Of a DNA stretch of 42,271 bases, positions 2,270 to 31,303 are shown piece by piece. Below the pieces are notes generated by a model that did not search any database, was not told the DNA's origin, and was given only the letters and a program-made list of their open reading frames with translations. Source of the DNA: Candidatus Saccharimonadota bacterium (GTDB lineage: Bacteria; Patescibacteriota; Saccharimonadia; Saccharimonadales; UBA4665); contig JARIHI010000007.1 in NCBI GenBank assembly GCA_029288365.1, positions 102,464-144,734 on the forward strand. Direction: 5' to 3'. Made by a program: the position numbers and the translations under genes. Numbering within the stretch: position 1 is the first letter of the stretch; every line of letters begins with the position of its first letter.

Positions 2270-3382
2270 CTATTTAATGTAATCAAGGAGTTTTTTAGCG
2301 TCTTTGTGGCGACGCAACTTGGCTAATGCTTTAGCTTCAATTTGACGGATACGCTCACGAGTCACAGCAAATTCCTGACCAACTTCTTCCAAAGTATGAT
2401 TACGTCCATCTTCTAGCCCAAATCGTAGGCGTAAGATTTTTTGCTCACGTTCAGTTAGTGCGCCTAGCATGTCTTTGACCTGCTCTTTTAAGAGCTGTCC
2501 CGTTGCAGATTCTTCCGGTGTGATCGTATCTTCATCTTCAATAAAATCAGCCAGTACTGATTCTTCTTCGTCATCGCGGATTGACGCGTCCAAAGAAGAA
2601 ATATCCTGCTTAATCTTCATAATATGCTCAACTTTATCGACGTCAATTTCCATGGCTTCGGCAATTTCTTCGTTAGTTGGCTCACGATTCAAATCTTGAG
2701 TTAAACGACGCTGCGTGCGAAGCAACTTGTTAATTGTTTCTACCATGTGTACCGGAATACGGATAGTCCGGGCTTGGTCAGCAATTGCACGAGTAATAGC
2801 TTGGCGGATCCACCAGGTTGCATAGGTACTAAACTTGAAACCCTTGTCTGGGTCGAATTTTTCAACAGCACGTAGTAGTCCAGTATTGCCTTCTTGAATC
2901 AAATCCAAAAGATCTAAACCACGGCCTACATATCGTTTCGCTATCGAAACAACCAGACGCATGTTGGCTTCAGCCATTTGGTCTTTAGCATCCTTGTCTC
3001 CAGCGACCACACGACGAGCTAGCTCCAGCTCTTCTTCACTGGAAAGCAGTGGCACCTTGCCGATTTCACGCAAATACAGACGCACCGAGTCATCAGCGAT
3101 GTCATCAAGATATTTTTGATCTTCGACGACGATTTCTTCATTGTCCTCGGCTACCCATTCATCTGAAAATCCGGACGCATCAGGTTCGGTAGTCAGCACT
3201 TCAATGTTTGCTTCGGCTAAATCCGTATAGAGCGCGTCTAAAACTTCAACGTTGTCAGGCGTGTCCGGAATCACTTTATTAATGTCTTTTTGGTCAATAT
3301 GACCAGTTTTTTTAGCTTGCTCGAACAAGTCTTGTTTAATTTTTTGTAAATCCACTTTTGGCTTATCTTTATCGTTCGGCAT
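2270..3382 (-). CDS. rpoD: RNA polymerase primary sigma factor
   Basis: A 370-residue sigma-70 factor. After an acidic N-terminal part (a short region 1.1-like segment, residues 1-90) come region 1.2 ([21 protein letters not shown]), region 2 ([20 protein letters not shown], then [13 protein letters not shown]), region 3 (RIPVHMVE and following) and region 4 ([18 protein letters not shown], then the [18 protein letters not shown] helix-turn-helix). It is compact compared with E. coli RpoD because it lacks the long non-conserved insert. The start codon overlaps the dnaG stop by one base (TAATG), implying translational coupling. The dnaG-rpoD order recalls the macromolecular synthesis operon. 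Promoters seen in this window (TTGACA-17-TATAAT) fit recognition by this factor. Confidence 0.97.
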
Positions 3383-5130
3383 TAATTGCCCCCCTTATAC
3401 GTATTGCGCAAGGCATTAAGTTCTTTATCTTTTTCAAGTAACGCACGCTGCTCTTCGGCAGTAGCATTTTTATAGGCTTCTTTTATATTCGCTTTTTGGG
3501 TCTTCACATATTGCTTTACCAATTCTGACTGCAGGTATTCAGCATCGTTCCGCAGTTCAAGCAATTCTACGCCCTGGTAAAGCTCTTCATATTGTAATGA
3601 TAACATTTTAACATAATCTGCCACCTCTTTCAATCCGGCTGCTTTCGATGGCGTACCGTCAAAGTCCGGTTGTTCTTTTAAGAAATTGAACACAAACTTT
3701 GCATTTTCTTCTGGAAGAAATTCAGCTCGCAGTGATACTAATAGATCGCGCAAATGCGGTTGTAGCAACAAGAGAGCAATCAGTTTATTCTGTTTTTTTA
3801 TAACTTCCAGATTTTCCTGTTCGATCTTGCTCAAGCGCACGTCCCGATGCGGCTTAAGCGGAGTTGGTTTCTCGGTATGGTCTAACTTCATCTGCAGTAG
3901 CGCTTCCCGGCTAACGTCTATGATATCTGCTACTCGCTGTACGTAATGTTCTTGTTCAACCCGATCACTTAACGTGCGAACTACTGTTAAAACAGTGTCG
4001 CTAAATACTAGTTTATTGCCCGGCTTTGTTAAATCTAGCTGTTTTTGATAATAATCAATCAGCCAATCGAGTACATACTTTGGCTCGTTCACTATACGTC
4101 CCCAGGCTGCTTGGTCTTGGCGGATAAGTTCGTCTGGATCTTTGCCGTTTGGAATCGTAATAACACTCAAACGCACACTGACTTTACTGGCGATAGGGAT
4201 AGCTCTTTCAGTAGCAGCAATGCCAGCGGCATCCGCATCAAAACTGAGACGTACATCACCAGTAAAACGCTTGAGCGTTTTGAGCTGCTGCTCGGTCAGT
4301 GCCGTGCCGGCTGTAGCGACACACTGCATAATACCAGCTTGGTGACTGGCAATTACATCGAGATTGCCTTCAGCCAACACGACAAACTTTGTTTTACGAA
4401 TAGACTCTTTGGCTAGATGCAGCCCAAAAACATGGCGACTTTTATCATACAAGGCTGTCTGTGGCGTATTGATATATTTAGGGGCCTGCGGATCGTCAAC
4501 AGCCAATAACCGAGCTGTAAATCCTACCACCCTACCCTGTTGGTCTTGCAGCGGTACCATTAATCGGCCCCGGAACATGTCGCCGCCGAACCGGTTCGTA
4601 AGGCCGGCTTGCTGGATTTCCCTTTGGTTGAAGCCTTGTTTTTTGGCAAAGTCTACTACTGCGGCTCCAGTATTTGGCGAGTAGCCAAGCCGCCATTGTA
4701 GTACCGTTTCTTTGGTAAATTGCCGCTTTTGCAACACATAGCTCAATGCGTCTTTGTTGGCTTTTAGGTTAGCCTGATAAAATTTCGCCGTTTGCTCAAG
4801 CAAGTGGTACAGACGCTCTTTTTGCTTGGTGTCATCACGACCCTTTTTATATTGTTCCAGCTCAATGCCTGCCTTGCGGGCCAGCAGTTCCAGCGCGCCG
4901 CGAAAATCCAAGCCTTCCATTGCTTCTACAAAAGTAAACATGTCGCCGCCTTTACCGCTACTGAAATCGTGCCAAATTTGTTTCTCTGGGCTTACCACAA
5001 AGCTCGGCGTACGTTCGTTTGTAAAGGGGCTAAGACCTTTGAAATTACGACCAGCACGTTTCAGTTGGACATACTCGCTAATGACATCCTCAATCGCCAA
5101 CCGCCCCTTAATTTCTTCAACCGCATCCAT
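3382..5130 (-). CDS. dnaG: DNA primase with a cysteine-less N-terminal zinc-ribbon
   Basis: A 582-residue bacterial primase. The N-terminal domain is recognisable ([20 protein letters not shown], then the [14 protein letters not shown] segment), followed by the catalytic core ([30 protein letters not shown]) and the TOPRIM domain ([16 protein letters not shown] and [16 protein letters not shown]), with a C-terminal helical region for helicase contact. In ordinary DnaG the first domain binds zinc through a Cys-Pro-Phe-His pair and a Cys-Phe-Gly-Cys pair. Here these read Ser-Pro-Phe-Thr and Asp-Phe-Ser-Ser, so all four ligands are gone while the surrounding fold motif is kept. A GATACT box ends eight bases before the ATG. 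It is coupled to rpoD downstream. Confidence 0.96.
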
Positions 5131-5239
5131 ATACGTTTAGTATCTAGTAACTGGCCTCTGGCCGCAAGCATAAGGGTCTAAAGTAAAACGCTTCACTTTA
5201 TACTTTATAACTTAACCACTTTCGACTATCATTAAACGT

Positions 5240-5854
5240 ATGCCTCCGGGGAACCAACAGCAACAATACGACTTTATAATGAGCGGCGGCCAAAAGGTCA
5301 AAAAACCTGGCTTTTCTTTGCCAACTGGCAATTCCCAGGGTCAGCGTATCGCTATATTTGCCGGAATCCTTGTGGTACTACTTTTGTTTTTCTTTTTTAT
5401 AGTTTCTATCGCAAGTGGCGGCGGTGAAAGTAAGACCAATTATATAAACCTCGTGCAGCAACAAAGCGAACTTATTCGTGTAGCCGGACTGGGTAGTGTC
5501 GACACTTCAACCAGTCAAAATGTTAAAAACGCTGCCGCCAGTACTCAGACTGCTTTATCCAGCGACAAACAAATACTAGTAGCTGCTATGCAAGAAAAGG
5601 GCATAAAACTAAAAGAACAGCAGCTAGCTGGCACTCCTAACACGACCACCGACAATCAGCTAGCAGCAGCAAAAGCGGCAGCGAACTATGACAGTACTAT
5701 TCTCAAAATACTTACGCAGCAATTAACTGCTTATCGCGCTCAATTACAAACAACCTACGATCAAACAAAATCAAAGTCATTGAAAACTTCCCTATCGCAA
5801 ATATACGAACATAGTAACCTTTTGCAAAAGCAACTGGAAACTACGAAGCCGTAA
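5240..5854 (+). CDS. Membrane-anchored protein with an extracytoplasmic helical domain, unknown function
   Basis: A 204-residue protein that I do not recognise. A Gln/Gly/Lys-rich cytoplasmic N terminus of about 35 residues precedes one strong membrane helix (residues 37-58, IAIFAGILVVLLLFFFFIVS). The remaining roughly 145 residues are Gln-, Ala-, Ser- and Thr-rich and look mostly helical (QLTAYRAQLQTTYDQTKSK), probably a coiled coil outside the membrane. A TATCAT box ends seven bases before the ATG, so the mRNA should be leaderless. It is divergent from dnaG, and its 3' end overlaps the convergent YjbR gene by 14 bases. It may be a cell-envelope scaffold; this is a guess from architecture only. 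Confidence 0.75.
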   Translation: MPPGNQQQQYDFIMSGGQKVKKPGFSLPTGNSQGQRIAIFAGILVVLLLFFFFIVSIASGGGESKTNYINLVQQQSELIRVAGLGSVDTSTSQNVKNAAASTQTALSSDKQILVAAMQEKGIKLKEQQLAGTPNTTTDNQLAAAKAAANYDSTILKILTQQLTAYRAQLQTTYDQTKSKSLKTSLSQIYEHSNLLQKQLETTKP

Positions 5855-6161
5855 CTAACTGGTACGAGTGACGGATGAGATCTTGCACTTCTTCCCAGGC
5901 CAATTGGCCGCTGAGCACAATCGTATTCCAATGTTTTTTATTTAAATGATATCCTGGCATGACTGATTCGTACTTTTCTCGCAAGACTGCACTGAGCTGG
6001 GGGTCACACTTTAAACTGACACGTACTGGGTCACTGCCCTCCTGAATAAGCGCAAACATTTTATCACCTGCCTTATACACTGCGGTTCCCTCGCCAAAAG
6101 GATACCCTAAAGTTGCGTTAGGCATGCTCAAAATATACTCTTCAACAGTCTTGTGGTCCAT
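5841..6161 (-). CDS. MmcQ/YjbR family protein
   Basis: A 106-residue single-domain protein matching the MmcQ/YjbR family in length and pattern: an N-terminal VEEYILSMPNATLGYPFGEG segment, KMFALI in the central sheet, a VSLKCDP turn, and the signature PGYHLNKKHWNTIVL. The family adopts a CyaY-like or double-wing DNA-binding-like fold and is usually annotated as DNA-binding; its biological role is not established. A TACAAT box ends eight bases before the ATG, so leaderless expression is likely. It is convergent and slightly overlapping with the coiled-coil membrane protein gene. Confidence 0.9.
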   Translation of the reverse strand: MDHKTVEEYILSMPNATLGYPFGEGTAVYKAGDKMFALIQEGSDPVRVSLKCDPQLSAVLREKYESVMPGYHLNKKHWNTIVLSGQLAWEEVQDLIRHSYQLVTAS

Positions 6162-6256
6162 GGCATAGCATTGTAGTAAAAACCGAAATCCTTTACAATC
6201 CCCTGCCCAAAAAGTTATAATTAAAGTACCGAAAGGGTGTGATCAGGGAGCTCATA

Positions 6257-6865
6257 ATGTACAGGCAAATTCAGTACATACACAGGCATACAAAGATTAC
6301 CAGCATGTCTCTTTTATTATTGTTTAGCGGTCTTTGCATAAGTATGCTCTATCCCCCCGCTCCAACTTCAGCAAGCAGCCTCACACAACTTGTACCCATA
6401 CAAGTTGTCCCTCGTGTCAAGGATTTGTTAAATTATCCCGCACCTCAATCAAGCTCTTCGAATCCGCCAGCTAACAACAGTGGTCAACAACCAGCAAGTA
6501 CGCCAGCTACACCTTCTACTGAAACTACCGCTACAAATGATGGTGCCACAACCCTGGAAAAGAAGAGCAAGGACAGCAATAATGACACAGCCTCAACAAC
6601 TCAACCAAACCCCAAGCCTACTGTGCCAGTTGGATTAGTTGTCAACCTATTTAATAGCACTACAACATCTGGAACTCTCGGCTTAATCTCGGCGTCTGCA
6701 AACCCTGATAGCCTAAACACCGATGTCGATCAAGAAAACACCACAAAGAACACCGTTACATCATTGGGTGCAAACGATTTCTCTTGGTACTGGGACTTTT
6801 TAGGCATAGCGGCTATCGTCGCAGTATATTACGGTTATCGTAATTGGCAACTTAGCAAAGAATAA
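6257..6865 (+). CDS. Secreted Ser/Thr/Pro-rich surface protein with a C-terminal membrane anchor
   Basis: A 202-residue protein. The N terminus carries basic residues and then a hydrophobic signal (about residues 18-38, SLLLLFSGLCISMLYPPAPT) ending near an ASA site. The middle 110 residues are low-complexity Ser/Thr/Pro/Asn/Gln, like a stalk that could be glycosylated. The C terminus has one helix (FLGIAAIVAVYYGY) and a short tail (RNWQLSKE), so the protein is probably anchored at both ends or at the C terminus. The ATG at 6257 was chosen over a GTG six codons upstream because an AGGGAG ribosome site lies six bases before it. Function is unknown; a cell-surface spacer or adhesin stalk fits the composition. 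Confidence 0.75.
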   Translation: MYRQIQYIHRHTKITSMSLLLLFSGLCISMLYPPAPTSASSLTQLVPIQVVPRVKDLLNYPAPQSSSSNPPANNSGQQPASTPATPSTETTATNDGATTLEKKSKDSNNDTASTTQPNPKPTVPVGLVVNLFNSTTTSGTLGLISASANPDSLNTDVDQENTTKNTVTSLGANDFSWYWDFLGIAAIVAVYYGYRNWQLSKE

Positions 6866-20334: not shown

Positions 20335-20751
20335 ATGCGCATCGTTGATGTAAAGTCGGACAGAGTGGTGGAAGAGCTCCCAGGCACGCCATGGGAGGAG
20401 CAGACCACCAGAAGTACCAAGACGGAGTACCGCTACCTGAGACTCACCGGTCCCAGAAAGGCAATCCTCTTCCTGACGACGGGGCTCAACCCTCGAGTCG
20501 CCAAGAAGATCAGAACCGTACTCGGCAAGTCCCACCAAGTCCGCACGGTGCAAGAGGTCCGAATCAAGTACGGCGAGGGCAAGGAGAGCGAGCTCGCTCT
20601 CTTGGCGGAGATCCGGCCCAACGGCTGGGAACGCCACATGAGAGATGTCCTCAACCGCATCGACAGAGGCGTGGACAGAAGCATGAGAGCGGCAGCGCGA
20701 GACGCCGCCAAGGCCGGAGATCGGCAACCGGCCTCTGCAGCCACCGCCTAG
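20335..20751 (+). CDS. GC-rich orphan gene A, unknown basic protein
   Basis: A 138-residue protein with no membrane helix and no recognised domain. A beta-looking N-terminal half (RIVDVKSDRVVEELPG, YRYLRLTGPRKAILFLTTGL) is followed by a very basic helical part (NPRVAKKIRTVLGKSH; ERHMRDVLNRIDRGVDRSM) and an Ala-rich tail. Third codon positions are predominantly G or C, unlike the flanking chromosomal genes. The ATG lies five bases after a strong GGAGGG ribosome site and inside the palindrome GCGCATGCGC. The promoter gives a leader of about 30 bases. Directly downstream is a folded RNA element repeated after orphan gene B. Longer frames in other phases are GC-rich shadows; this frame alone combines promoter, ribosome site and 3' element. 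Confidence 0.7.
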   Translation: MRIVDVKSDRVVEELPGTPWEEQTTRSTKTEYRYLRLTGPRKAILFLTTGLNPRVAKKIRTVLGKSHQVRTVQEVRIKYGEGKESELALLAEIRPNGWERHMRDVLNRIDRGVDRSMRAAARDAAKAGDRQPASAATA

Positions 20752-20769
20752 CCCAGCAGTCAGGAACAC

Positions 20770-20906
20770 GAACGAGCGCGTTGACAAACGCCCAAGAAGT
20801 TGAATCGCGTCGTCCGCGAGTCGTTCAATAGCCGGGTTTAGTGAGAAGAGACTAGCGCGAGACTTTACCGTCTCTTATACATAACCATCTTTTACACTAA
20901 CCCGGC
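20770..20906 (+). ncRNA. Folded 3' RNA element, copy 1
   Basis: Part one is a three-way junction: closing stem GAACGA (20770-20775)/TCGTTC (20821-20826), hairpin GCGTT-gaca-AACGC (20778-20791) and hairpin CGCG/CGCG (20806-20818). Part two is a long stem GCCGGGTTTAGTG (20831-20843)/CACTAACCCGGC (20895-20906) enclosing a GAGAC/GTCTC hairpin. The same two-part plan, including ATAG before the CCGGGTTTAGTG strand and ACCAT before the closing strand, follows orphan gene B. No T-run follows, so it is not a simple intrinsic terminator. Confidence 0.65.
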
Positions 20907-21021: not shown

Positions 21022-21411
21022 TTGTCTCGCAAAAGGGCTCGCGAGTTCCAAGAACTCCGCAAACGGTTTGGCGCAAGCTTTGACCGTGAGACCTATAAGG
21101 TCACGTTGCAGTGGCCTTGCACCGATGAATTTCGGCGCGAGGCCTGTAGGAAGCTGAGAGCACGCTGTTCGCGCGTGGTCGACGCCTATTACACCAGTGG
21201 CTGCATCATCCTCAAGCTTTCCGAGTCGCATGCGCGTTCGGACGAGGCTCTGATGAAGCCGATCCTGTACGAGCTTCAGCGAATCGTCAAGGATCAGAAG
21301 TCAGCAAGAATGGAGCGGCGCGCTACCAAGCGGCGGCGGCGCAGCAGATACAAGAACAAGCAGCGCGCGAAGGGACGCTACTTGCCGAGACCGGCGTTCC
21401 ACGAGATGTAG
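21022..21411 (+). CDS. GC-rich orphan gene B, unknown highly basic protein
   Basis: A 129-residue protein, probably starting at TTG because no in-frame ATG lies between the promoter and the conserved-looking start SRKRAREFQELRKRFG. The centre looks like a small alpha/beta domain (YKVTLQWPCTDEFRREACRKLRARCSRVV, CIILKLSESHA). The C terminus is extremely basic (ERRATKRRRRSRYKNKQRAKGR), suggesting nucleic-acid binding. G/C dominates third codon positions. Promoter and 3' RNA closely resemble those of orphan gene A, but the proteins show no obvious similarity by eye. The ribosome site is unclear (GGGGGCGG seven bases upstream). Confidence 0.65.
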   Translation: MSRKRAREFQELRKRFGASFDRETYKVTLQWPCTDEFRREACRKLRARCSRVVDAYYTSGCIILKLSESHARSDEALMKPILYELQRIVKDQKSARMERRATKRRRRSRYKNKQRAKGRYLPRPAFHEM

Positions 21412-26672: not shown

Positions 26673-26902
26673 TTAATTGTAATTTAAGATTAAAATTGTT
26701 ACGCTTAGAAGGTAAAAACAAAAAGTGTGATGGGACTTTCGCTAGCCCAAAAAGCGAATGTACTTTCCGGAGACAAATCTAAAAATTGTGAAAATTTAGG
26801 ATTGTTTTGTGGTGGGCTTTAGTTTGAAAAGCCTAGTATTAAGTTATCTTGATTCACGTGAAAATTTTTTAAGAAATAGTTAAAACTTTATTAAGATGTG
26901 CT
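26673..26902. other. A/T-rich gene-free stretch between tsaD and the hammerhead
   Basis: There is no supported ORF. It is A/T-rich with one clear inverted repeat TTCGCT/AGCGAA around 26742-26759. It lies downstream of both the tsaD stop and the minus-strand hammerhead, so it is where transcripts from both directions would end. I see no standard terminator with a T-run after a strong stem. Confidence 0.5.
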
Positions 26903-26955
26903 TGCAGTTTCGACTTGAACCTCCCAAGTCTCATCAGTAGCTAAGCTAAACTGCA
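26903..26955 (-). ncRNA. Type III hammerhead ribozyme downstream of GC-rich orphan gene C
   Basis: Reading the minus strand 5' to 3': stem III strand TGCAG (26955-26951), then T and T (U16.1 and H17, a GUU cleavage triplet), stem I TAGC-tta-GCTA (26948-26938), the core CTGATGA (26937-26931), stem II GACTTG/CAAGTC (26930-26925 and 26917-26912) with a seven-base loop, GAAA (26911-26908) and stem III return CTGCA (26907-26903). All invariant hammerhead core bases are present. Stems I and II are looped and stem III is open, which defines type III. Predicted self-cleavage is between 26949 and 26948, about 63 bases after the orphan gene stop. Confidence 0.88.
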
Positions 26956-27011
26956 CTCCTAACTACTTGACCTCTACCCTATGGGGGAAATCTGTAGCAC
27001 AGACCACAAAA

Positions 27012-27452
27012 CTATTCGTAATGTGAGGAGCGTGTCTGTGTGTGCGGTCCTGCTCGTTGACGAGAGGGTGAAGGTGAAAAGGGTTTGGGACCCGATCCGT
27101 CATCCCCTTCATCATCATCGCCCAGGATGTCGCCATGACCGTAAAATACCGACAAGACGACCAGAGCACCTGAGAGCAAGAACGCTATGACGCACAGTAC
27201 CACCATTGCACTGTACACACCCCAGTAGGGCGAACCGGCTCTCTCGATGAGTTTACTGGCGGATCCCAGAGCGAGCTGGAAGACCAGATACAGCGGTCCT
27301 GCGAGTGCGACAAGGTGAGCCAAACTCACACGGAGAACTCTCCTGCGAGTGTTGAGTCTCATTGACGGCGCCCAAAACGCTGTCACAATATTCACCAACG
27401 AAGGCACTACAAGAATCCCCAGCGCCACAAGGAACGGCGGATTCTGAAACAT
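27012..27452 (-). CDS. GC-rich orphan gene C, small membrane protein with acidic tail
   Basis: A 146-residue protein with three membrane helices (about residues 7-27, 44-63 and 78-105) and a hydrophilic tail containing an acidic run GDDDEGDDGSG and then a Pro/Ser/Arg end. There is no recognisable family. Codons favour G or C at the third position much more than valS or tsaD next to it. The ATG follows AAGGG by eight bases, and the promoter gives a leader of about 38 bases. The 3' region carries hairpins TCTGT/ACAGA and CCC/GGG and then a complete hammerhead ribozyme. It is divergent from valS, sharing the -35 region. Confidence 0.75.
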   Translation of the reverse strand: MFQNPPFLVALGILVVPSLVNIVTAFWAPSMRLNTRRRVLRVSLAHLVALAGPLYLVFQLALGSASKLIERAGSPYWGVYSAMVVLCVIAFLLSGALVVLSVFYGHGDILGDDDEGDDGSGPKPFSPSPSRQRAGPHTQTRSSHYE

Positions 27453-30109: not shown

Positions 30110-30110
30110 A

Positions 30111-30139
30111 TTGACTTTTTATTAATTTTATGCTATAGT
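30111..30139 (+). promoter_or_regulatory. Promoter of GC-rich orphan gene D
   Basis: TTGACT (30111-30116), 17 bases, TATAGT (30134-30139), beginning two bases after the valS stop codon. The predicted leader is about 250 bases, far longer than usual in this window. Confidence 0.8.
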
Positions 30140-30145
30140 GTATTA

Positions 30146-30395
30146 ACTGTTCTTTCGTATGTTAACTTCTTGATAAGGAGTTCACAAACGAGAGAGTTCA
30201 ACTAAATTCTCCCGCGGCGAGCTCTGTGCTCAATAGGACTGCTGCCGACATAGCTCGTCCCGGCTATACGACTGTTTCGTACATCGAACCTTCACGAGGA
30301 ATACTTGTAAAACACGGCTGGAACCCGTAAGAGCATGTTGGTCATGCACTTATTGGGAGTTAGGTACTGCCCATTTCGATTTGAGGAGCCGCTTT
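30146..30395 (+). promoter_or_regulatory. Long structured 5' leader of GC-rich orphan gene D
   Basis: About 250 bases with a series of perfect short stems: CGAGCT (30218-30223)/AGCTCG (30252-30257), TACGA (30267-30271)/TCGTA (30277-30281), ACGG (30314-30317)/CCGT (30325-30328) and GCATG (30333-30337)/CATGC (30343-30347). A GAGGAG ribosome site (30383-30388) follows. It is not a riboswitch class I recognise; it may regulate translation or form one folded RNA with the 3' region. Confidence 0.55.
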
Positions 30396-31037
30396 ATGCG
30401 TCGTCTCGCTTTGGCAGCTTTCGCTGCTTTCATGCTGACCTGCGTGCCTGCAATCGCCACGGCGGCCAGATGGCACGCACCTTCGCACCACAAGTCCGTG
30501 AGCTGTCGCTACGGCGCCACGATCAGCACCTGTTCCCTCTACTCCCAGAGAGGCAGTCTGGTCGCCAGACTCACGCGCAAGAAGGAGACCTCGCCGAATG
30601 CGTGCTTCACCTCCACCTACACGGACGTGAAGATCATCACCTGCGACGAGACGATCACCTTGCGGTCCTACCGCAGAGGGCGTGTCACGGACATCGTGTA
30701 CTGGGGAGGAATCTCTCAGACGGTCAAGCCAGTGACGCTTCCCGGCCCAGAGCCGCGCGTCGACTACAGCGGCATGTTCTGCAAGGGAAGTGCCTGCCAG
30801 GTGTTCGACACCGACGGCCAGCTGGTCGCCGAGTGGCAGTACGGTCTGCTGTTCGAAACCTGTCGAGAGCTCGTCGACGGCTTCACGCACTTCGAGATGT
30901 GCACGCAGCGCACCGAGACCAAGGTCTACGGCAAGGACGGCCACCTGCTGGTATCGGACGTCAGGCTCACACCTGTCCTGAACACCGGCAAGCCGCCCCT
31001 CGTCGAGAACCCACCCGTGCTTCAGAGCACGAACTGA
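30396..31037 (+). CDS. GC-rich orphan gene D, secreted cysteine-rich protein
   Basis: A 213-residue protein with a clear Sec signal peptide (MRRLALAAFAAFMLTCVPAI, then ATA-A cleavage near residue 24). The mature part has eight cysteines in a regular pattern (SCRYG, STCSLY, NACFT, ITCDE, FCKGSACQV, ETCREL, EMCTQ), consistent with four disulfides and repeated beta-hairpins. No known domain is recognised. Third codon positions are strongly G/C, unlike valS just upstream. The ATG lies seven bases after GAGGAG; an in-frame TTG five codons earlier is less likely. It has its own promoter, a long folded leader, a chain of hairpins after the stop, and a type III hammerhead. A long antisense frame is a GC-content shadow. 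Confidence 0.82.
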   Translation: MRRLALAAFAAFMLTCVPAIATAARWHAPSHHKSVSCRYGATISTCSLYSQRGSLVARLTRKKETSPNACFTSTYTDVKIITCDETITLRSYRRGRVTDIVYWGGISQTVKPVTLPGPEPRVDYSGMFCKGSACQVFDTDGQLVAEWQYGLLFETCRELVDGFTHFEMCTQRTETKVYGKDGHLLVSDVRLTPVLNTGKPPLVENPPVLQSTN

Positions 31038-31082
31038 TACATCGACGCGCCACCACTTGAGCAACAAGTAAACCTCAAATGA

Positions 31083-31219
31083 ATCACCAAGGAGGTGATA
31101 CCTAAACTGAGATAGCTCAGATGAAATCCCCGACCCGGGGTGGGCAGGAGGTGCCAAGACGAGCTCTTGCGCATTTCCGCCCTCAGAGGGGTATACAACG
31201 TTGCGAGTCTTTACTCCAC
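31083..31219 (+). repeat. Chain of consecutive short hairpins in the 3' region of orphan gene D
   Basis: Perfect hairpins follow one another with little linker: ATCACC/GGTGAT (31083-31099), CTGAG/CTCAG (31107-31120), CCCCG/CGGGG (31128-31140), GGCA/TGCC (31143-31155), CAAGA/TCTTG (31155-31169), CCCT/AGGG and GAGT/ACTC near 31180-31216. The hammerhead starts at 31232. The first hairpin contains AAGGAGGTGAT, the full complement of the usual 16S rRNA 3' end. Confidence 0.7.
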
Positions 31220-31231
31220 GTGCCCCCTCTT

Positions 31232-31290
31232 TCTTTCACTCTACGAATGTGTATTCGTACTGACGAGTCCAAAAGGACGAAAGTGAAAGA
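31232..31290 (+). ncRNA. Type III hammerhead ribozyme downstream of GC-rich orphan gene D
   Basis: In order: stem III strand TCTTTCAC (31232-31239), T then C (U16.1 and H17, a CUC triplet; cleavage after 31241), stem I TACGAAT-gtgt-ATTCGTA (31242-31259, 7 bp), core CTGACGA (31260-31266), stem II GTCC-aaaa-GGAC (31267-31278), GAAA (31279-31282) and stem III return GTGAAAGA (31283-31290, 8 bp). Every invariant core position is satisfied. Stem III is open and stems I and II are closed by loops, so this is type III. It ends 13 bases before the stop codon of the convergent XRE-HAD gene. Confidence 0.93.
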
Positions 31291-31303
31291 TAAGTCCTGG
31301 CAG

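Follow-up and report, generated by a model that had tools for sequence, protein, structure and literature searches.

We found that the sequence at positions 31232-31290 (forward strand) of the window is, by its anatomy, a complete type III hammerhead ribozyme; the window is the whole stretch of DNA analyzed here, 42,271 nucleotides from a Candidatus Saccharimonadota bacterium. We think it likely, although far from settled, that the ribozyme belongs to a single-gene expression cassette that was gained as a unit. In such a cassette the ribozyme would make a defined, protected mRNA 3' end, which in many sister cassettes would be part of a panhandle. As read from sequence, the support consists of the anatomy and covariation of the ribozyme, its placement at gene ends, the insertion junction, the structure of the 3' UTR, and, in relatives, a helix between the two message ends that has undergone compensatory changes.

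The hammerhead at 31232-31290

The putative ribozyme has the following parts, all on the forward strand.

31232-31290 (+): type III hammerhead ribozyme with full core; stem III of 8 bp, stem I of 7 bp, stem II of 4 bp
31232-31239 and 31283-31290 (+): stem III, TCTTTCAC with GTGAAAGA, 8 bp, open stem
31239-31241 (+): cleavage triplet C-U-C, read from the sequence
31242-31248 and 31253-31259 (+): stem I, TACGAAT with ATTCGTA, 7 bp, loop GTGT
31260-31266 (+): core CTGACGA, read from the sequence
31267-31270 and 31275-31278 (+): stem II, GTCC with GGAC, 4 bp, loop AAAA
31279-31282 (+): core GAAA, read from the sequence
31241..31242 (+): site of self-cleavage, predicted to follow C17 of the C-U-C triplet and inferred from its position in the core

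Direct reading confirmed the initial annotation, which had described a complete type III hammerhead with all core bases and stems of 7, 4 and 8 bp. The core bases (CUGANGA ... GAAA) and the NUH triplet are all found. The helices follow the type III order, with stem III open and stems I and II closed by loops.

A covariance-model check with the type III hammerhead, which the initial annotation had proposed, gave a match just under the cut-off. RF00008 (Hammerhead_3) aligned over its full length with 44.5 bits (E = 4.1e-8 in a 1.4-kb search). A default RF00008 scan is silent at this site because the score is under the gathering score of 48.5, which is a curated threshold and not an anatomical criterion. 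The likeness to the RF00008 type (clan CL00010) includes the core, the three stems, the open stem III, the NUH triplet, and the loops on stems I and II. The window ribozyme differs in its short AAAA loop II, its GTGT loop I and its score just below the cut-off, and in that ribozymes of this kind here form the 3' ends of chromosomal, protein-coding cassettes in Patescibacteria.

The minimum free-energy fold of 31232-31290 is the hammerhead (z = -3.0). The R2 covariance model gave 79.6 bits, which is by construction, as the sequence is a member of the R2 seed. All three stems are kept across 25 homologous hammerheads from the source genome and its relatives, with strong covariation: paired cells made up 92.8%, compared to 71% in shuffled controls and 24-44% with slid partners, and two-sided changes were found in 14 of 16 modeled pairs. 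Loop lengths are nearly constant among the homologues, which is compatible with a tertiary contact between loops I and II and says no more than that.

It is scarcely credible that the motif is a chance or inactive look-alike. Its RF00008 score is under the cut-off, but the E value (4e-8 in 1.4 kb), the presence of 11 copies in the genome and the covariation all speak against this.

The window cassette and its junction

The ribozyme is the last element but for a few nucleotides of a predicted transcription unit that we call cassette L005.

30110..31303 (+): whole cassette L005, 1,194 bp, between valS and a convergent HTH-HAD gene, delimited by comparing the junction with relatives
30111..30139 (+): promoter TTGACT-17-TATAGT, starting 2 nt after the valS stop
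30150..30196 (+): hairpin (z -4.3) where the transcript is predicted to begin
30383-30388 (+): Shine-Dalgarno site GAGGAG, upstream of the orphan ORF
30396..31037 (+): orphan ORF, 213 aa, 62% GC, GC3 0.83
31038..31231 (+): structured 3' UTR (z -5.1 together with the ribozyme)
31185-31191 and 31224-31230 (+): last hairpin of the 3' UTR, AGAGGGG with CCCCTCT, ending 11 nt before the cleavage site

The distance of 195 nt from gene to ribozyme that was given initially is correct, as the stop codon of the ORF ends at 31037. The claim that the ribozyme lies in the 3' region of the transcription unit of an orphan secreted-protein gene is well supported, and this placement recurs in 158 cassettes. The 213-aa product is cysteine-rich and has a likely signal peptide. 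We found no homologues of it in phages, plasmids, IMG/VR or 59 relatives, and no PHROG match. A single-sequence structure model (pLDDT 44.6) was too poor for use.

The position of the cassette indicates how it was gained. In most relatives showing both genes, valS converges with the HTH-HAD gene, and their stops overlap or are within about 20 nt of each other. The same junction in the source genome holds the 1,194-bp insert, which spans from the -35 box, 2 nt past the valS stop, to 13 nt beyond the ribozyme. Similarly, cassette L014 fills the junction between yraN and an 862-aa gene, a pair that is close together in many relatives. Because the cassettes fill junctions that are tight in relatives, the unit of gain appears to be the whole transcription unit, including the ribozyme. 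The window cassette does not have a prophage context, its flanking valS and HTH-HAD genes being adjacent in relatives.

In a few relatives the valS/HAD junction holds other sequence, which consisted of ordinary genes in the case inspected. Inserts in the same junctions of relatives (L310, L332, L333, L338, L340, L346) were considered as ribozyme cassettes and rejected; they are genes of ordinary GC content. Across the valS/HAD and yraN/862-aa junctions (L292, L298, L310, L331-L333, L338, L340, L346) the genes differ and are mostly of ordinary GC content. Both junctions are recurrent sites of gene gain, since different genes occupy them across genomes.

The convergent arrangement raises the possibility that the ribozyme is chiefly an insulator, or a substitute for a terminator. 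It would block read-through antisense to the convergent neighbor by cutting, after which the downstream piece would decay from its 5'-OH end, and mRNA stability would be secondary. In three cassettes (window, L013 and L014) only 4-14 nt separate the end of the ribozyme from the stop of the convergent gene, and reading of the sequence after the window ribozyme revealed no U-tract terminator, both as expected of an insulator. However, co-directional genes follow other cassettes (L007, L008), a plain terminator would suffice, and neither the structured 3' UTR nor the pairing of the ends, both upstream of the cut, would be explained. We regard an insulator as the chief function as quite improbable.

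Sister cassettes and pairing of their ends

The source genome (0.91 Mb, 97% complete) contains 11 hammerheads in the RF00008 and R2 searches combined, 8 of one type and 3 of a variant type whose stem I differs and whose stem II is longer. The window holds two of the 11, at 31232 (+) and 26900 (-). The second belongs to a cassette with these parts.

26900..26958 (-): hammerhead of the variant type, TTTAGCTTAGCTACTGATGAGACTTGGGAGGTTCAAGTCGAAA, found with covariance models
27012..27452 (-): orphan ORF of the second cassette, 146 aa, upstream of the ribozyme

An ORF on the same strand precedes 10/11 of the hammerheads, in stand-alone cassettes, each with a promoter of its own and an orphan ORF rich in GC. 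One hammerhead (L012; G000:C4:32615-32673, minus strand) ends a GC-rich stretch of ~600 bp in which no ORF is evident; the stretch may specify a noncoding RNA or be what is left of a decayed gene.

We found that the cassettes share an order: promoter, leader, Shine-Dalgarno site, GC-rich ORF, usually a structured 3' UTR, and ribozyme. The promoters are sigma-70-like, with a spacing of 16-18 nt. The distance from stop codon to cut has a median of 103 nt (interquartile range 75-140; n = 158 cassettes, ORF on the same strand). From stop to cut the 3' UTR is strongly structured, with a mean z of -5.1 and 87% below -2 (54 cassettes), compared to a mean z of -1.4 for ordinary 3' flanks (n = 56). The last 14 nt of the cassette 3' UTRs are paired at 0.58 (0.42 expected; P 7e-5). 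Hairpins at the 5' end are significant in some cassettes only (z -4.3 in L005, 0 to -1.7 in others).

What the cassettes encode is not shared. A common protein family behind them was ruled out: 85 cassette ORF proteins have almost no mutual similarity, and few have Pfam, PHROG or defense matches. The ORFs are GC-rich, with GC3 of 0.55-0.97 compared to 0.41 +/- 0.07 in 152 ordinary ORFs of the source genome. In many genomes the GC content of the ORF is over the local background (138/147 cassettes; mean +9 points), and in one genome with about 30% GC, the cassette ORFs reach only 33-34%. Because the excess follows genome GC, it does not point to one foreign source. The high GC3 had also suggested an mRNA exported to, and translated by, a high-GC host; this is unsupported, as AGA makes up 31% of Arg codons. 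Such a share of AGA is unlike Actinobacteria.

Two neighboring GC-rich orphan ORFs in the window, 20391-20831 (+) and 21022-21411 (+), have no hammerhead. After each comes a long hairpin, similar in the two: CCGGGTTTAGTG...CACTAA(A)CCCGG. They are probably of the same cassette class with a hairpin end only. L286:315-845 (-) and L281:9709-10251 (+) resemble them.

In about a third of the cassettes, the leader can pair with the 3' end. Complementarity of the leader to the 3' UTR just upstream of the ribozyme was first suspected from L280, L008 and L013. In a first set, 24/83 cassettes were over the 95th percentile of mismatched leader/3'-end pairs (4 expected), and 10/83 were over the 99th percentile. 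In an independent set of 50 cassettes, none of them in the first, 17 were above the 95th percentile (2.5 expected) and 6 above the 99th (0.5 expected). Pooling all 158 cassettes, 35% have a helix whose end lies 7-11 nt upstream of the cut (most often 9 nt), compared to 5% of mismatched pairs. About two thirds of the cassettes have no clear end-to-end helix.

The 3' segment of the helix is 10-15 nt long and ends about 9 nt upstream of the cut. The leader strand often lies 3' of a conserved hairpin near the predicted start, with the consensus CTTTGTTGAG...CTCCGAAG-N5-TGACAAGCAGACA. Across 40 distinct helices, several types of base pair were found at nearly every position. These helices were chosen for complementarity, and we therefore place the weight on the mismatched-pair controls. 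The tandem cassettes L036 and L041 have near-identical leaders, and differences in the helix strand are matched in the 3' end of each. The 3' strand of the helix is also able to pair locally inside the 3' UTR. Local pairing and the leader duplex are alternatives because the same 3' strand serves both; opening the local pairing would require ~10 kcal/mol, compared to about -18 for the leader duplex (loop cost ignored). A pattern search for panhandles with one fixed spacing gave no match, but this carries no weight for or against the helix, since the strands had to be 200-230 nt apart and most ORFs are longer than that. In many leaders (e.g., L021, L041, L356, L367) there is a second conserved stretch, CACRAGGTGRG, a few nucleotides past the panhandle strand.

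The window cassette has a hairpin near each end, 5' and 3', but no end-to-end helix was detected in it. Its helix score of 16 is below the control mean of 20.4, and it does not meet the panhandle criterion. On balance we favor, with reservations, the notion that hammerhead and end-to-end helix together are an RNA-only closure of both mRNA ends in accessory cassettes of Saccharibacteria and, in a less strict form, perhaps also of other Patescibacteria. Start hairpin, leader strand, and a cut ~9 nt past the helix would give a panhandle mRNA, and L005 would be a divergent member without the helix.

Pairing of message ends is known from icaR of Staphylococcus aureus, in which 5'-3' UTR pairing is reported to control translation of one gene (PMC3868564). 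The likeness is in long-range pairing of mRNA ends; the cassette helix differs in that many genes without relation to each other have it, always at a set distance from a ribozyme cut. RAGATH-10 (RF03147) gave weak matches in the leaders of two sister cassettes, at 28.8 and 33.5 bits (cut-off 41.2), and its covariance model had no match anywhere in the source genome. The two weak matches, L107:6126-6204 (-) and L356:992-1074 (+), have an SD-like AGGAGA at their 3' end. They suggest that hammerhead cassettes carry RAGATH-10 as an element of their 5' UTR. The RAGATH-10 motif has no end-to-end helix, unlike the panhandle cassettes.

The paired ends might also indicate a mobile element similar to retrozymes, in which the ribozyme would serve the excision and circularization of an RNA that is copied back to DNA. 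Type III hammerheads produce the circles of retrozymes and satellites (PMC7761336), end pairing would bring the ends together, and tandem copies exist (L011/L009, L036/L041). Retrozymes and viroid-like circular RNAs resemble the cassettes in ribozyme type and in ends that could meet. Nevertheless, the cassettes are protein-coding, with unrelated ORFs as inserts even in one genome, and each has a single ribozyme, so that the criterion of two bounding ribozymes is not met. RtcB (PF01139) is absent from 12 ribozyme-rich genomes and present in 9/14 controls, which makes circularization by RtcB unlikely. We consider a retrozyme-like element very doubtful.

Our results are most consistent with a self-contained cassette with a ribozyme-made 3' end. 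A cassette would enter a tight junction between convergent genes as a whole unit, and its ribozyme would cut the transcript co-transcriptionally. The cut would leave a uniform mRNA 3' end with a 2',3'-cyclic phosphate right after strong secondary structure, and this end would dispense with a terminator inside the neighboring convergent gene. For about one in three sister cassettes, the leader segment beside the start hairpin may pair with the segment before the cut to form a panhandle. The likely outcome would be an exonuclease-resistant, long-lived mRNA without antisense run-on into the neighbor. Trimming of the transcript 3' end by the ribozyme, already inferred in the initial annotation, remains an inference, as do cleavage in vivo, the 2',3'-cyclic phosphate and mRNA stabilization; there are no cleavage, transcript-end or half-life data.

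Relatives, phages and earlier reports

Hammerheads of this kind are widespread in relatives. Named loci that carry them, with proteins identical to those at loci of the relatives, are from Candidatus Saccharibacteria. With the R2 model they were found in 91/393 sampled genomes of the order (23%; up to 14 per genome) and in 43/380 sampled genomes of the phylum (11%). The order carries at least a hundred beyond the 11 of the source genome. A pattern scan of GTDB species gave at least 118 stretches, and most of those named among the matches listed are from Patescibacteria of many classes.

The function of bacterial hammerheads is an open question (PMC6155905), and it is not known why they show the gene associations they do (PMC10085705). 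They have been reported to flank small non-conserved ORFs and to be linked to phages, with their role left open (PMC6155905, PMC10085705). The initial annotation knew of no hammerheads described as 3' tails of lone secreted-protein genes in this group. That needs qualification, given the numbers in the genome and order and the earlier reports of hammerheads beside such ORFs. What stands is that the chromosomal cassette family in Patescibacteria, together with the pairing of its 5' and 3' ends, seems to be undescribed in the searchable literature, which did not cover the original work on gene associations. We found no papers in the open literature on hammerheads with Saccharibacteria, Patescibacteria or the candidate phyla radiation (subscription papers were excluded).

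The phage link bears on the origin of the window cassette. It could be a leftover, a moron-like gene from a phage with hammerheads after its stop codons, the ribozyme now being without a role in the bacterium. On IMG/VR phage contigs, consecutive genes are indeed each followed by the same hammerhead, mostly with 13-60 nt from stop to cut, and the reviews link bacterial hammerheads to phages (PMC6155905, PMC10085705). The likeness lies in a ribozyme beside orphan genes, with phage copies after stops. However, cores are intact and stems covary in many diverged copies, and compensatory change keeps the end-to-end helices. The cassettes are single, among housekeeping genes, and PHROG matches are few among the 85 proteins and absent for the window protein. 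IMG/VR gave no match to the leader motif. Unlike the bacterial and phage hammerheads described, the cassettes are dispersed and stand alone on chromosomes, with a promoter and a structured 3' UTR; many have a covarying leader/3'-end helix, and there is no tie to Mu-like genes. We judge a phage leftover unlikely, though it should be kept in view.

If the cassettes are as we propose, hammerheads in these small-genome, host-dependent bacteria mark the 3' ends of a recognizable class of accessory genes, and a large share of them is coupled to a covarying helix joining both message ends. The role of bacterial hammerheads would thereby become a concrete, testable question, and naturally evolved ribozyme-ended mRNAs are a potential tool.

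Other arrangements of the ribozyme were also observed. On IMG/VR contigs L216, L230, L193, L177 and L218 a hammerhead follows several consecutive genes, mostly 21-54 nt past their stops; some of the proteins on these contigs resemble an amidoligase/glutamylcyclotransferase set, as judged by eye. Contig L064 (JANLIU010000041.1, Parcubacteria) has at least 10 type III hammerheads in 4 kb (2472-6531), 134-310 bp apart. They alternate with a second conserved motif of three hairpins (e.g., 3063-3140) that has no Rfam match, and the array lies to either side of a DinG-like helicase gene.
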